NCBI GenBank assembly: GCA_019359715.1
Contig: JAHHGS010000098.1
Span: 1 to 47,847 of the forward strand
DNA from: Aphanocapsa sp. GSE-SYN-MK-11-07L
GTDB taxonomy: Bacteria; Cyanobacteriota; Cyanobacteriia; Thermosynechococcales; Thermosynechococcaceae
DNA length: 47,847 nt
Direction of reading: 5' to 3'
Position numbers and translations under genes: made by a program
Part shown: positions 17,471-22,077 of the stretch, piece by piece
Layout of the letters: every line of letters starts with the position of its first letter
Numbering within the stretch: position 1 is the first letter of the stretch
The notes under the pieces: model-generated
The model's input: only the letters and a program-made list of their open reading frames with translations
Database searches by the model: none
What the model was told of the DNA's origin: nothing

Positions 17471-18155
17471 TCACCTCATTACTCTTAGCATTTCGTTCCC
17501 TCCACGCTGGAATTCATAGGGTACACGTTCGAGCGCAACTCTATAACCGGCTTGAGCTAATCTCTCCAGCAGCGGTTCGATCGAGATGTTGCGATCGCTC
17601 CGCATTATAGGTGAGCAATGGGAATATCCGAGCTTCGTAGGCGACTGTACACATTGATTCGATCGCTTGTTGGTGAAACGCCAGCGAGAGTTGATCCGAG
17701 TATAAGAAAAGGAAATGCGAACACAGAGCCAGCTCGAAGGCGGCGGGTTCAAATGGTAAATGGGGCAATTCTCCGACGACATAACGATCTTCTGCTTTCC
17801 CTTGCTCGTAATCGGACAAGAACATCTGCATAGCAGTCATGCGAATTTGACCGAGTTCGTCAGGCGACTTGATGTTAGTCCAGACAAATTTGGCTTGATT
17901 CTGGCGAGTTTGTCCGATCACGTCTTCATAAGTAGCATCAATTCGTTTTTGAATTTGCTGGGCAGACAATCGATAGAGTGGATCGCACGAAACGACCTGG
18001 CGACCAGATTTAGCCAGGTGGGCATTGAAACTGGCTGGTCCATCCGCACAACCGATAATCCTTAGATTCAAATCCTCAGCGGTCAGCGCGAACATTCGCT
18101 GATATTCTTCAAATGAGCGCCCCCAAGGAACAACCGATTGATATTGAAAAGCCAT
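17471..18155 (-). pseudogene. Class I SAM-dependent methyltransferase-like gene, frameshifted by a 4-bp tandem duplication
   Basis: Reads MAFQYQSVVPWGRSFEEYQR, then LRIIGCADGPASFNAHLAKSG (SAM-binding motif I) and VVSCDPLY (acidic ribose contact) through AYEARIFPLLTYNAERSQHL in one frame. It then continues as EPLLERLAQAGYRV...YEFQRGGNEMLRVMR in another. At 17577-17584 the plus strand has TCGATCGA; dropping one TCGA rejoins SQHL to EPLLERL exactly and gives a 226-residue protein. The gene is therefore one simple slippage event from intact. The substrate is unknown. Confidence 0.8.
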
Positions 18156-18177: not shown

Positions 18178-18594
18178 TCAGAATTCGCCTTTTAGAAATT
18201 GCACGATCGCAGTCGTGTCAGAATAATACATTTGAGATTCCATGATTTTTCCATCGTAAAATTTATAAACGCTGACGGTTGGGGAGTTGAGCCTTTTGCC
18301 ACTGCCTACGTCCAGTCCTTTCAACTGCCAAAGCACGACGACATACTCGCCTGCATCTAGAAAGACGGCATCCATTTTCCTTTCGGCTGCGGGTTGGAGA
18401 TGATTCCAAGCTTGAGCAGCACCTTCGATATGTAGCTTTGCCCCTTCGAGGCCATGAGGTATCCCGCCATAGGGCAGTGATGCAGCATCGCGGATGACAA
18501 TGTCAGGAGCGTAAGCGGCCAGCACACCAGCGACATCGCGTTCTTCAACAGCATTAAACAAACGACGAGTATTGTCTAGATTCTCGCGTGACAT
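18178..18594 (-). CDS. SnoaL-like/NTF2-fold protein
   Basis: A 138-residue protein of the NTF2-like SnoaL polyketide-cyclase-type fold: NTRRLFNAVEERDVAGVLAAYAPDIVIRDAASLPYGG, a central AAQAWNHLQP helix, and the closing strands YVVVLWQLKG and SVYKFYDGKIMESQMYYSDTTAIVQFL. Such proteins range from isomerases to cyclases, and no catalytic assignment is safe. The start MSRENLD (18594) has AAGGAA upstream. It lies about 95 bp downstream of the AraC regulator on the same strand and could be the last gene of the ECF41 operon. Confidence 0.85.
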   Translation of the reverse strand: MSRENLDNTRRLFNAVEERDVAGVLAAYAPDIVIRDAASLPYGGIPHGLEGAKLHIEGAAQAWNHLQPAAERKMDAVFLDAGEYVVVLWQLKGLDVGSGKRLNSPTVSVYKFYDGKIMESQMYYSDTTAIVQFLKGEF

Positions 18595-18690
18595 AACGGT
18601 TTCCTTCTCGCAAGAGATATTGAAATCATCTAACATCTTCAGTATCGAGCAGGGCTTAAAGGCTTTTCTTCAATATTCTTGTGATCGCTT

Positions 18691-19578
18691 TCAACGTTCT
18701 TGCTGTGTCTGTTGTAAAAATACTTTAGGCGTGATTCCGATCAGCCGTTTGAAGTGGTATGTGAAATGACCTTGGCTAGCAAAACCAACTGCCTGAGCAA
18801 TTGCTGCGATCGACAAATTACCCATCAGCATCAGTTGTTTAGCCCGTTCAATCCGACAATAAATTAAATATTGATGTGGCGATGTATTTGTTGATTTCTT
18901 AAACAAATGCGCGAAATGATAAGGACTGAATTGCACAATCCCTGCTAGCTCAGCTAAGTGAATATTTCTATCTAGATTTGCATGAATGAAATCAACAATT
19001 CGTTGCCATTGGGCTTGCGAAAAACCGCCTGCAATCGGTTTGGTTTGGCGTGAATTAGATGAATATCGCGCTAAGAGGTGAACGACTAAGGCATGGGCGA
19101 TCGCATCTGCATATAAGCTGCTGTTTTTTCCATCTATTTCTAACGATGTTTTCAGCGCAAAGCCAATCTGCTGCACAAATGGATCGGAGAGGGTTGCCAG
19201 ATGGGGAATCAGTTCTAAGCGATCGCTGCCGAACACGTCGTAACTCACCTGAGTCAGAAATGATGGTTCTAAAAACAGATTGAAAAACTCAGTTTCCTGA
19301 TCCCAGCGGAACTGTTGGCTAAGACAAGCTGGATAAATTGCCAAATCTCCTAGCTTGGAGTCAACTACCTTATGTTGTTGATCAATTGTTTGTTCCAAGC
19401 GCACAGGCTGGCCAACATTAATACAAAGTGTATGCCGTAACGATATATGTTCTGGCACATCACAGGCAGGGTGCCGAAAGTGAGCAAAGTGAATATTTTT
19501 CCAATTTGAGTAATGACTTGCCAGAACTGGCGGTTGAGGAAGAATGTTCGGCAGATTATTTTGGATCAGATTACTCAT
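18691..19578 (-). CDS. AraC family transcriptional regulator
   Basis: A 295-residue regulator. The N-terminal about 190 residues form a sensor part containing a cupin-like stretch. The C-terminus holds the two helix-turn-helix motifs of AraC/XylS proteins: NIHLAELAGIVQFSPYHFAHLFKKSTNTSPHQYL and LSIAAIAQAVGFASQGHFTYHFKRLIGITPKVF. The ATG at 19578 overlaps the end of the ECF sigma gene (19571), so the two are translationally coupled. That pairing of a sigma factor and an AraC activator in one transcript is unusual. The ligand is unknown. Confidence 0.9.
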   Translation of the reverse strand: MSNLIQNNLPNILPQPPVLASHYSNWKNIHFAHFRHPACDVPEHISLRHTLCINVGQPVRLEQTIDQQHKVVDSKLGDLAIYPACLSQQFRWDQETEFFNLFLEPSFLTQVSYDVFGSDRLELIPHLATLSDPFVQQIGFALKTSLEIDGKNSSLYADAIAHALVVHLLARYSSNSRQTKPIAGGFSQAQWQRIVDFIHANLDRNIHLAELAGIVQFSPYHFAHLFKKSTNTSPHQYLIYCRIERAKQLMLMGNLSIAAIAQAVGFASQGHFTYHFKRLIGITPKVFLQQTQQER

Positions 19579-20485
19579 GGTGATCAGTCATTCCTGATTT
19601 ACTCAACTGCTGTAGCTTCTCTGGATTCCGAATAATATAGATCGTCTGAATACTGCTACCAACGATCTTAAACGTCATCACACTGTGAATGTTGCTGCCA
19701 GTCCGCACAATGACCCCAGGTTGCCCATTGACTTGCGCCAGGTCAGCACGGCTAGCTGCCAACGATTTTCGCTGAATTGCTAACAGGAAACGAGCCACTT
19801 TCATGGAGCCGTGCAGAGGCTTCAGCGCAGCCGCCACCTGACCTCCGCCATCTGACCAGAGCGTGACATCCTGGGCTAAAAGTGCCAATAGCCCCTGCAA
19901 GTTGCCGTGGGTTGAGGCATCCAAAAATTGTGCAGTCATCTGCTCCTGCTGCTGGGATGAAACCGGAAAGCGAGGCCGCTCAGTGGCAAGGTGCTGTCGC
20001 GATCGCCGTAAAATCTGCCGACAGTTCTCAGCACTTTTACCCACGATTTGAGCAATCTCAGGATAGTCGTACTCAAACACCTCGCGTAAGAGAAACACGG
20101 CTCGTTCAGTTGGCGATAGCCGCTCTAGCATGACTAAAAAAGCGATTGAGAGCGACTCTGCCAACTCGACCTGTTCGGCTGGGTCTTGCTGCATCATCAG
20201 GGGTTCTGGTAGCCACGGGCCGATGTACTGTTCGCGACGAACACGGGCAGAACGCAAATAATCAATGCAGAGGCGGGTAATCGTCGTTGTTAAATAGTTT
20301 TTGGGAGTTTGCACTGCGGTTTGGGGTGTTTGCTGCCAGCGCAGATAGGTTTCTTGCACCATATCTTCGGCATCGCTGACAGTGCCCAGCATGCGGTAAG
20401 CAATGCCAAACAGTAACCGACGGTAATGATTGAACGCATTAAGGGGATTTATAGCGCCTTCTGCCAAGTCGTGCTCAGTGCCCAT
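19571..20485 (-). CDS. ECF41-type RNA polymerase sigma factor with C-terminal SnoaL-like domain
   Basis: A 304-residue extracytoplasmic-function sigma factor. Region 2 is seen in FNHYRRLLFGIAYRMLGTVSDAEDMVQETYLRW and region 4 in LSPTERAVFLLREVFEYDYPEIAQIVGKSAENCRQILRRSRQHL. The remaining about 120 residues form a SnoaL/NTF2-like extension with two hallmarks of ECF41: the DGGG motif (LWSDGGGQVAAALKP) and the terminal YIIRNPEKL (NPDKL-like). In ECF41 proteins this extension modulates activity instead of an anti-sigma factor, and none is encoded here. The gene start overlaps the upstream membrane-protein gene by about 37 bp. Confidence 0.92.
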   Translation of the reverse strand: MGTEHDLAEGAINPLNAFNHYRRLLFGIAYRMLGTVSDAEDMVQETYLRWQQTPQTAVQTPKNYLTTTITRLCIDYLRSARVRREQYIGPWLPEPLMMQQDPAEQVELAESLSIAFLVMLERLSPTERAVFLLREVFEYDYPEIAQIVGKSAENCRQILRRSRQHLATERPRFPVSSQQQEQMTAQFLDASTHGNLQGLLALLAQDVTLWSDGGGQVAAALKPLHGSMKVARFLLAIQRKSLAASRADLAQVNGQPGVIVRTGSNIHSVMTFKIVGSSIQTIYIIRNPEKLQQLSKSGMTDHHE

Positions 20486-20850
20486 AGGCCAACTCCAGAT
20501 CCGATTCCTTTTGTGATCAATAACAAGACGGCTGTGGCTTGGAATATCAATCCCCAGCCGGCAAAGGAAATTTGCGAAATGTGATCGGGGCTAATGACAA
20601 TGAAATGATTGTAAATCCCGAACAGTAGCCCCCCAGCCATTGAACCTAAAAAAAGCCAGCGGCCAATGGAGGACAACGGTGTCCATAGCAAAATAGCGGC
20701 GACGATCGACATCAGGACAATGATCAGCCCCACAAATAGACTCTGAGCCGCAGACAAAGGCACTGGGATGTTTTGGTGCGCTAAACTGTGCACTAGAAAT
20801 ATGATTGCGTGGATGGCGACTACGATTGTTCCAGAGTGGGCTAACTGCAT
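20449..20850 (-). CDS. Four-helix membrane protein of the ECF41 operon, function unknown
   Basis: A 133-residue protein with four hydrophobic helices (IVVAIHAIIFLVHSL; LFVGLIIVLMSIVAAILLW; RWLFLGSMAGGLLFGIYNHFIV; WGLIFQATAVLLLITKG). The start at 20850 is set by a strong Shine-Dalgarno, GGAGG, in GAAGGAGGAAAA directly before the ATG; the frame extends to 20877 without it. Position between the AhpD-like and sigma genes, with overlap into the latter, says it belongs to the same response. I do not recognise a named family. A sensor or protective membrane role is conceivable but unsupported. Confidence 0.8.
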   Translation of the reverse strand: MQLAHSGTIVVAIHAIIFLVHSLAHQNIPVPLSAAQSLFVGLIIVLMSIVAAILLWTPLSSIGRWLFLGSMAGGLLFGIYNHFIVISPDHISQISFAGWGLIFQATAVLLLITKGIGSGVGLWALSTTWQKAL

Positions 20851-20923
20851 TTTTCCTCCTTCAGCAATCGGTTGCATCTGAACATTGACTGAGAGAGATA
20901 TCGGTGCACCTCTCCCTAATTAT

Positions 20924-21415
20924 TTATTTGACAGCTAGGGGTTCAGAACTCTGCTGATTTGGCACAGGTGGTTCATAGGTGCCGGGCACGATGCGAGTCG
21001 CGATCGCAATTCGATTCCAGGCGTTGATCGTAACAATCGCGATCAGCAAATTGGCAATTTGCTCAGGCGAGAAATACTGGCTGACTTCTTGGTAAAGCGC
21101 GTCAGAAACATGATCAGTGGCAATCAGCGTCAGAGCTTCGGTAAATGCCAAAGCTGCTCGTTCTGTGGGGGTAAAAAACGGGGTTTCCCGCCAGCCGTTT
21201 AAGGCATAGATCCGCTGTTCCGTTTCGCCGCGTTGTCTAGCATCTTTGGTGTGCATATCAAGGCAGAACGCACAACCGTTAATTTGTGAAGCCCGGATTT
21301 TAATCAGTTCCAGTAGGGTTAGATTGAGCCCACTGCCCTGAACATACTGCTCTAGCTGTAACATGGCTCGATAAGCGGCTGGGTTAGCGCTCAGTTCTAG
21401 TCTTGCCTGCATCAT
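20924..21415 (-). CDS. Carboxymuconolactone decarboxylase/AhpD-like protein
   Basis: A 163-residue member of the AhpD-like/CMD superfamily. The redox motif with relay His is clear: INGCAFCLDMHTKDARQRGE (C-x2-C-x3-H). It is followed by RIYALNGWRETPFFTPTERAALAFTEALTL and NLLIAIVTINAWNRIAIATR, typical of the alkylhydroperoxidase-like subgroup that removes peroxides using thiols. GGGAGGAGC precedes the ATG at 21415. It is the first gene behind an ECF41-type promoter and belongs to the classic COE target set (carboxymuconolactone decarboxylase, oxidoreductase, epimerase) of ECF41 factors. Confidence 0.93.
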   Translation of the reverse strand: MMQARLELSANPAAYRAMLQLEQYVQGSGLNLTLLELIKIRASQINGCAFCLDMHTKDARQRGETEQRIYALNGWRETPFFTPTERAALAFTEALTLIATDHVSDALYQEVSQYFSPEQIANLLIAIVTINAWNRIAIATRIVPGTYEPPVPNQQSSEPLAVK

Positions 21416-21449: not shown

Positions 21450-21476
21450 GACGAGATAGCCCTGCTGGTTGTGACA
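21450..21476 (-). promoter_or_regulatory. ECF41-type promoter
   Basis: Read on the minus strand: TGTCACA (21476-21470), 16 bases, then CGTC (21453-21450). This is the bipartite pattern I know for ECF41-dependent promoters. It is 35 bp ahead of the AhpD-like gene, and the operon it would drive encodes the ECF41 factor itself, so positive autoregulation is implied. Confidence 0.8.
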
Positions 21477-21537
21477 CCTTTAGGCAAAATTCTTGTGCTG
21501 ATCGCCCGGAGCTGACTGGAATGAATTAAGATTTTTG

Positions 21538-22077
21538 ATGAAGGGTCAGCAAAAACCGCGATCGGCAATGCAAGCAAAATTGACGCAGCGAAGGCAATGG
21601 CGGAGTACGGTGGCAGATATTGTCTTAGCGGCGATCGTTTTAGGCCCGCCAGCGGCTCCGTTCTTGGCGGCTTCTGGTTTACCCTTGCTGCCAATCATTG
21701 CTCAGATTATTTACACGATGGGGCTGCATGTTTGCCCGCAACCGGAAATGGCGGTTGTCATGGCTCCACCGTGGCTGATGGCAGTCTGTATGCGCTGCTA
21801 TGGCACCGTGCTGGCGCTCCTAGCGACCCGTTTGCTCTACGTGGTCGATCGAGGCAACGGCGGGTATTGGCTGAGCCAATACGGACGGCGCGGGCTGCTG
21901 CTGTCGGTGATAATGATGCTGTTTTATCCGGCTGAGCTATTTGCCCAGCGCTGGGGGTTGTGGGGCTACAGCAATCCGGTTGTATTCCCGTTTGGCTGGG
22001 TGACCGGGTTGGGCTTAGGACTGTTAATTATGCCCTGGCTACACGGCTCAAGCCGCCAAGTGTTGCTCCACGACTGA
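21538..22077 (+). CDS. DUF2085 family membrane protein
   Basis: A 179-residue membrane protein with about four hydrophobic segments and the DUF2085 signature: an N-terminal LHVCPQPE and then [13 protein letters not shown] (C-x-RC-x-G pattern). The C-terminal [27 protein letters not shown] is also typical. The biochemical role of the family is unknown; the paired Cys/His residues suggest metal or redox chemistry. The start MKGQQK (21538) follows an in-frame TTG. Its last 30 bp overlap the 3' end of convergent glmM. Confidence 0.85.

Follow-up and report, generated by a model that had tools for sequence, protein, structure and literature searches.

The question posed by this locus is whether a short motif, a carboxymuconolactone decarboxylase (CMD) gene and a gene for a sigma factor of the ECF41 group constitute a self-amplifying regulatory loop. 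The original prediction placed promoter, target and regulator together; all three had been correctly identified, and each of their features has a counterpart in the published ECF41 system. Within the window, i.e. the whole 47,847-nt stretch of DNA analyzed here, the relevant features are as follows.

21450–21476, minus strand: ECF41-type promoter, exact match to TGTCACA-N16-CGTC
20924–21415, minus strand: AhpD-like CMD family protein, 163 aa (PF02627, 5.9e-24; TIGR00778, 6.4e-19)
20449–20877, minus strand: small four-helix membrane protein, 142 aa (nothing over cut-off in Pfam or NCBIfam)
19571–20485, minus strand: ECF41 sigma factor, 304 aa (TIGR02957, 391 bits; PRK09636 SigJ, 347 bits)
18691–19578, minus strand: AraC-family regulator, 295 aa (PF12833, 2.3e-22)
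18178–18636, minus strand: stand-alone SnoaL-like protein, 152 aa, possible operon member (PF12680, 5.7e-12)
17541–18155, minus strand: weakly methyltransferase-like protein, 204 aa, possible operon member (PF08241, 0.0055, below cut-off)

The predicted order of an AhpD/CMD-like gene, a membrane protein gene and an ECF41 gene was borne out by the PF02627 and TIGR02957 matches, and the assignment of the sigma factor to ECF41, with DGGG and NPEKL motifs, by the latter score, by the presence of both motifs and by an alignment. The TIGR02957 match spans residues 16–293 and lies over the cut-off of 323.25 bits; the PRK09636 SigJ model (NCBIfam) also scored over its curated cut-off. The sigma domains PF04542 and PF08281 fall within residues 17–165 of 303, and the C-terminal extension comprises at least ~100 residues. 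The layout is sigma2, a linker containing YIGPWLPEP, sigma4, and the C-terminal extension with DGGG and NPEKL, the three motifs beginning at residues 87, 212 and 287 (first Met counted). DGGG is an ECF41 group motif, a status supported by our alignment of 26 sequences, in which its D and second G are invariant, as are W, L and both P of WLPEP and N, P and K of NPEKL. Published marks of the group are WLPEP (YVGPWLPEP) in the sigma2–sigma4 linker (Wecke et al. 2012, PMC3426412) and an NPDKL-type motif near the C-terminus. The protein further resembles SigJ of Mycobacterium tuberculosis (PDB 5xe7; 2e-46 over residues 14–259), which is named as an ECF41 member in a 2022 review (PMC8999054); the host differs, and the comparison was one of protein sequence. 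Judging from this likeness, the C-terminal extension probably adopts a SnoaL-like fold, and Pfam did not report SnoaL_2 in the protein. In the 5.1-Mb draft genome, one gene scores over the TIGR02957 cut-off and five weaker matches fall below it.

The putative promoter consists of a −35 element, TGTCACA (21476–21470), a 16-bp spacer and a −10 element, CGTC (21453–21450). The match predicted upstream of the AhpD/CMD-like gene is exact, and CGTC ends 34 nt before the ATG of the CMD gene at 21415, directly 5′ of which lies GGGAGGAG. The CMD gene is predicted to be the first gene and the target of this promoter. It is the only exact match to TGTCACA-N(14–18)-CGTC within the window, and 100 shuffles of the window yielded 0.01 matches on average, with a match in 1 of the 100. 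The stretch between the CMD gene and a divergent gene for a DUF2085 membrane protein (21535–22077, plus strand) is common to that gene and the ECF41 promoter.

Could the motif be a chance match, with the operon controlled otherwise, for example, by its AraC regulator? The genome-wide scan for TGTCACA-N16-CGTC that was proposed with the original prediction recovered the operon site, but this was the only exact copy in 5,105,314 bases (159 contigs), no more than the chance number: the reversed pattern, at the density seen across 30 genomes, predicts about 1.3 copies genome-wide. The count of one is therefore compatible with a chance origin. What exceeds chance is the placement of the motif, with ~3e-5 matches expected in a strand-specific stretch of 250 bp, and its conservation in 25 of 31 loci, as detailed below. 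Given these two lines of evidence, we regard a chance match as extremely improbable.

Conservation was assessed by searching 291 genomes of the class with TIGR02957, which gave matches at an E-value of 1e-40 or better in 30 genomes, with the family cut-off exceeded in 25; the window and 30 loci fetched from 29 other genomes formed a set of 31 cyanobacterial ECF41 loci. The exact motif lies upstream of the ECF41 gene on the same strand in 25 of these, a version with a single mismatch in three (L090, L091, L095), and no motif was found in two (L092, L094); in the remaining locus (L074), the exact motif follows the ECF gene on a 3.6-kb contig. Genomes containing the motif were significantly more frequent among those with ECF41 (27 of 30) than among the others (114 of 261; Fisher p 9e-7). 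A second set, which has several contigs in common with the fetched loci and is not independent of them, comprised the best 80 of 444 relatives in named genomes, scanned for the exact motif with a spacer of 15–17 on either strand from 3 kb upstream to 0.5 kb downstream of the ECF gene. The motif was present in 45 of these best 80 (22 of 25 cyanobacterial and 23 of 55 other loci), whereas a control with each motif half read backwards was found in none of them. The pairing of the motif with ECF41 is not universal because 35 of the best 80 lack the exact motif; 32 of these 35 are non-cyanobacterial, some with little upstream contig sequence.

The same signal emerged from a table of 22 promoter regions, one from the window and the others from the named cyanobacterial loci, of which 21 of 25 were used. 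When the 7-mers before the first gene were counted, a procedure that does not itself presuppose the motif, TGTCACA proved the most frequent; it occurs in 21 of the 22 loci (TGTCACG in the remaining one), each time with CGTC at an identical distance. The 150-bp stretches in this table were not picked blind because some gene starts were chosen with the motif in view: where an ORF began before the motif, an in-frame start after it was taken, and some starts are approximate. Omitted from the table were L105, in which the motif lies downstream on a short contig, L127, for which little sequence precedes the genes, L132, which lacks an exact motif, and, by oversight, L166, which has the motif. The majority conserved stretch in the 22 loci extends to TGTCACAAC in front and TCGTCTTAT behind; at these flanks, the window has TGTCACAAC and TCGTCTGAT. 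Among the 25 named cyanobacterial loci, 12 have a CMD gene before the ECF gene, and eight other first genes tested with Pfam matched Epimerase (L099, L100, L104, L106, L113) or Flavodoxin_2 (L114, L119, L124). On the contig shared by L074 and L105, the exact motif lies just 3′ of the ECF41 gene, 106 bp before another ORF, which suggests a different target order there.

These findings closely reproduce a described system. Wecke et al. (PMC3426412) reported TGTCACA-n16-CGTC as the ECF41 promoter, CMD genes as the only detectable ECF41 targets in two species, with a single target operon, and the motif preceding 97 of the 107 COE genes that stand in the COE-then-ECF order. COE refers to the CMD, oxidoreductase and epimerase classes, i.e. 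the three enzyme classes seen as first genes of the cyanobacterial loci (CMD, Epimerase and Flavodoxin_2). As in ecf41Bli/ydfG of Bacillus licheniformis and ecf41Rsp/RSP_0606 of Rhodobacter sphaeroides (PMC3426412), the promoter is TGTCACA-N16-CGTC, the target is a CMD gene with a CxxC motif (here CAFC at residue 48), the COE gene precedes the ECF gene, the sigma factor has a C-terminal extension and the WLPEP motif, and there is no recognised adjacent anti-sigma gene. Unlike these systems as described there, the cluster contains a membrane protein gene between the CMD and ECF41 genes, and the AraC, SnoaL-like and weakly methyltransferase-like genes come after ECF41. Because the same promoter, target and order were found in that study, the original reading of the locus is correct and already explained; promoter, target, gene order and single-operon regulon are all described for ECF41 by Wecke et al. 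2012 (PMC3426412). Two cyanobacterial members appear among the 373 of the ECF41 survey in the same paper, whose authors also note that Bacillus subtilis has no ECF41 factor, and we found no cyanobacterial ECF41 operon in the literature besides it; subscription papers were mostly beyond this search, and we do not claim absence. The present cluster is a clean cyanobacterial example of the published module, with one gene over the family cut-off and one exact promoter in the draft genome.

The scope of the regulon was approached through relaxed versions of the motif. Allowing up to one mismatch gave 31 sites in the genome of origin, compared to 52 for the reversed pattern, and relaxing the −10 element and the spacer gave 7 compared to 13. 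Both counts are below the reversed control, without enrichment, and we accordingly rejected a wider regulon in this genome. Inspection of 35 distinct near-match sites, the ECF41 promoter included, placed 23 within mechanically called ORFs; apart from the ECF41 promoter itself, none of the 35 preceded a gene that could be recognised, by eye from the first 70 residues, as being of the CMD, epimerase or flavodoxin type; one further site with at most one mismatch, without a locus, was left out. In the 30 genomes with ECF41, for which the 30 rows of motif counts were transcribed by hand, the fetched ECF41 stretches account for 28 of 63 exact copies, and the 35 elsewhere do not exceed the reversed control (46). 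This lack of enrichment elsewhere, in the genome of origin and in the 30 genomes, supports a single-operon regulon, with the proviso that weak or divergent sites would escape a motif scan. A single-operon regulon is no rule for the entire group, and wider roles exist because an Azospirillum ECF41 factor controls motility and lateral flagella, by the title of a paper cited in the 2022 review (PMC8999054).

The next issue is whether the regulator belongs to the transcript that it would activate. The gap between the CMD and membrane protein genes is 46 nt, the membrane protein gene overlaps the start of ECF41 by 37 nt, and a simple scan of the minus strand detected no terminator-like site from CMD to ECF41; from this arrangement, we infer that the three genes are co-transcribed. 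The AraC gene overlaps the ECF41 stop by 8 nt and is a probable downstream member of the ECF41 transcript, and the operon likely runs on into the AraC, SnoaL-like and weakly methyltransferase-like genes. A positive, self-amplifying loop is well predicted; what the analysis directly establishes is the motif, the genes, the family membership, the conservation of the motif at this position and its lack of enrichment elsewhere. Under a different explanation, the motif does drive CMD as an ECF41 promoter, whereas ECF41 itself is expressed mainly from another promoter, so that there is no real loop. Some starting supply of the sigma factor must indeed exist, and ECF41 expressed from a foreign promoter was sufficient to activate the target in the experiments of Wecke et al. 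(PMC3426412). The tight packing of the three genes points the other way, as does the simple scan, which found neither the terminator-like site nor a sigma-70-like site on the minus strand ahead of ECF41. We therefore consider separate expression of ECF41 unlikely. No basal promoter that could start the loop was identified by the sigma-70 scan, which gave 4 sites, compared to 5.2 in shuffles.

Taken together, these results make it very likely that the cluster is an ordinary ECF41 autoregulatory module with C-terminal restraint and signal-gated self-amplification. By analogy with other ECF41 members, for which promoter recognition and C-terminal restraint are known, RNA polymerase carrying the ECF41 factor would read TGTCACA-N16-CGTC at 21476–21450 and transcribe CMD, the membrane protein gene, ECF41 itself and probably the AraC, SnoaL-like and methyltransferase-like genes. 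The extension at the C-terminus, which is SnoaL-like in the relative of solved structure, would restrain the factor until this restraint is relaxed by a signal, presumably either a small ligand or a change in redox state; the operon would then amplify itself, raising the levels of the CxxC enzyme and the sigma factor. The loop should be signal-gated because published work shows restraint of an ECF41 factor by its C-terminal domain; in that work, the extension both restrains and supports activity (PMC3426412). Similarly, the 2022 review lists ECF41 among the factors switched on by conformational change (PMC8999054). At the time of Wecke et al. 2012 (PMC3426412), ECF41 factors had neither a known inducing condition nor a reproducible phenotype, which makes the cluster useful as a test case.

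The membrane protein neighbour is a concrete lead on the inducing condition. The less expected parts of the cluster are this overlapping four-helix protein with conserved histidines and the AraC gene overlapping the end of the sigma factor gene. The AlphaFold2 model of the membrane protein has four helices (mean pLDDT 92.7), and H22, H29, H33 and H90 (numbered without the first Met) are invariant in 11 aligned members. Beyond the window, the family was seen beside ECF41 at L097, L098, L101, L103, L104, L106, L107, L125, L132 and L134; of these, L097 (Phormidium tenue FACHB-886) shares its first three genes with the window's cluster. A Foldseek search with the model returned no match at E 0.001 or better. 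Similarities to unrelated helical bundles, with Z up to 13.1, may reflect only a common arrangement rather than kinship, and two candidate families, Herpes_UL20 (Pfam 0.0056, below cut-off, 1 of 11 members) and an SMR transporter (NCBIfam 16.9 bits, cut-off 188), were rejected as membrane-segment noise.

The genomic distribution of this protein bears on its role. It could be argued that signal sensing and control of the ECF41 factor fall to the overlapping protein as well as to the C-terminal extension, given that the gene for this protein overlaps or abuts ECF41 even in loci that begin with an epimerase gene instead of CMD (L104, L106) and in one Anaerolineae locus (L134). However, most ECF41 loci lack it (it is present in 8 of the 31 loci and 10 of the best 80 named loci, sets with some contigs in common), and in the 291 genomes, only 9 of its 21 copies, distributed over 17 genomes, are beside ECF41, which is missing altogether from 7 of the 17. 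Seven of the 12 copies away from ECF41, some of which are broken, adjoin an epimerase-like gene (by eye; L183 confirmed by Pfam), and of the nine copies in the seven genomes without ECF41, five lie by an epimerase-like and four by a DUF4331-like gene (by eye, one of each Pfam-confirmed). Because copies adjoin epimerase-like genes, including in genomes that lack ECF41, a partnership with the enzyme fits better than regulation of the sigma factor. We accordingly deem control of ECF41 by this protein quite improbable. A more specific proposal, that it belongs to a histidine-rich four-helix family acting as a membrane redox or metal/heme partner of CMD or epimerase that may relay the ECF41 signal from the membrane, is tentative and, as a whole, rather doubtful.

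An AraC gene directly 3′ of ECF41 is found in 4 of the 31 loci, at 18691–19578 in the window, 7948–8847 in L068, 5321–6217 in L093 and 259–897 in L095. The AraC proteins of the latter three loci are 71–72% identical to each other and 36–43% identical to that of the window, so that two different AraC types seem to have come to lie next to ECF41. L095 (G209:C193, 259–2155), from the same family as the genome of the window, retains just the C-terminal part of ECF41 along with a truncated membrane protein gene and the one-mismatch promoter, and looks decayed or misassembled.
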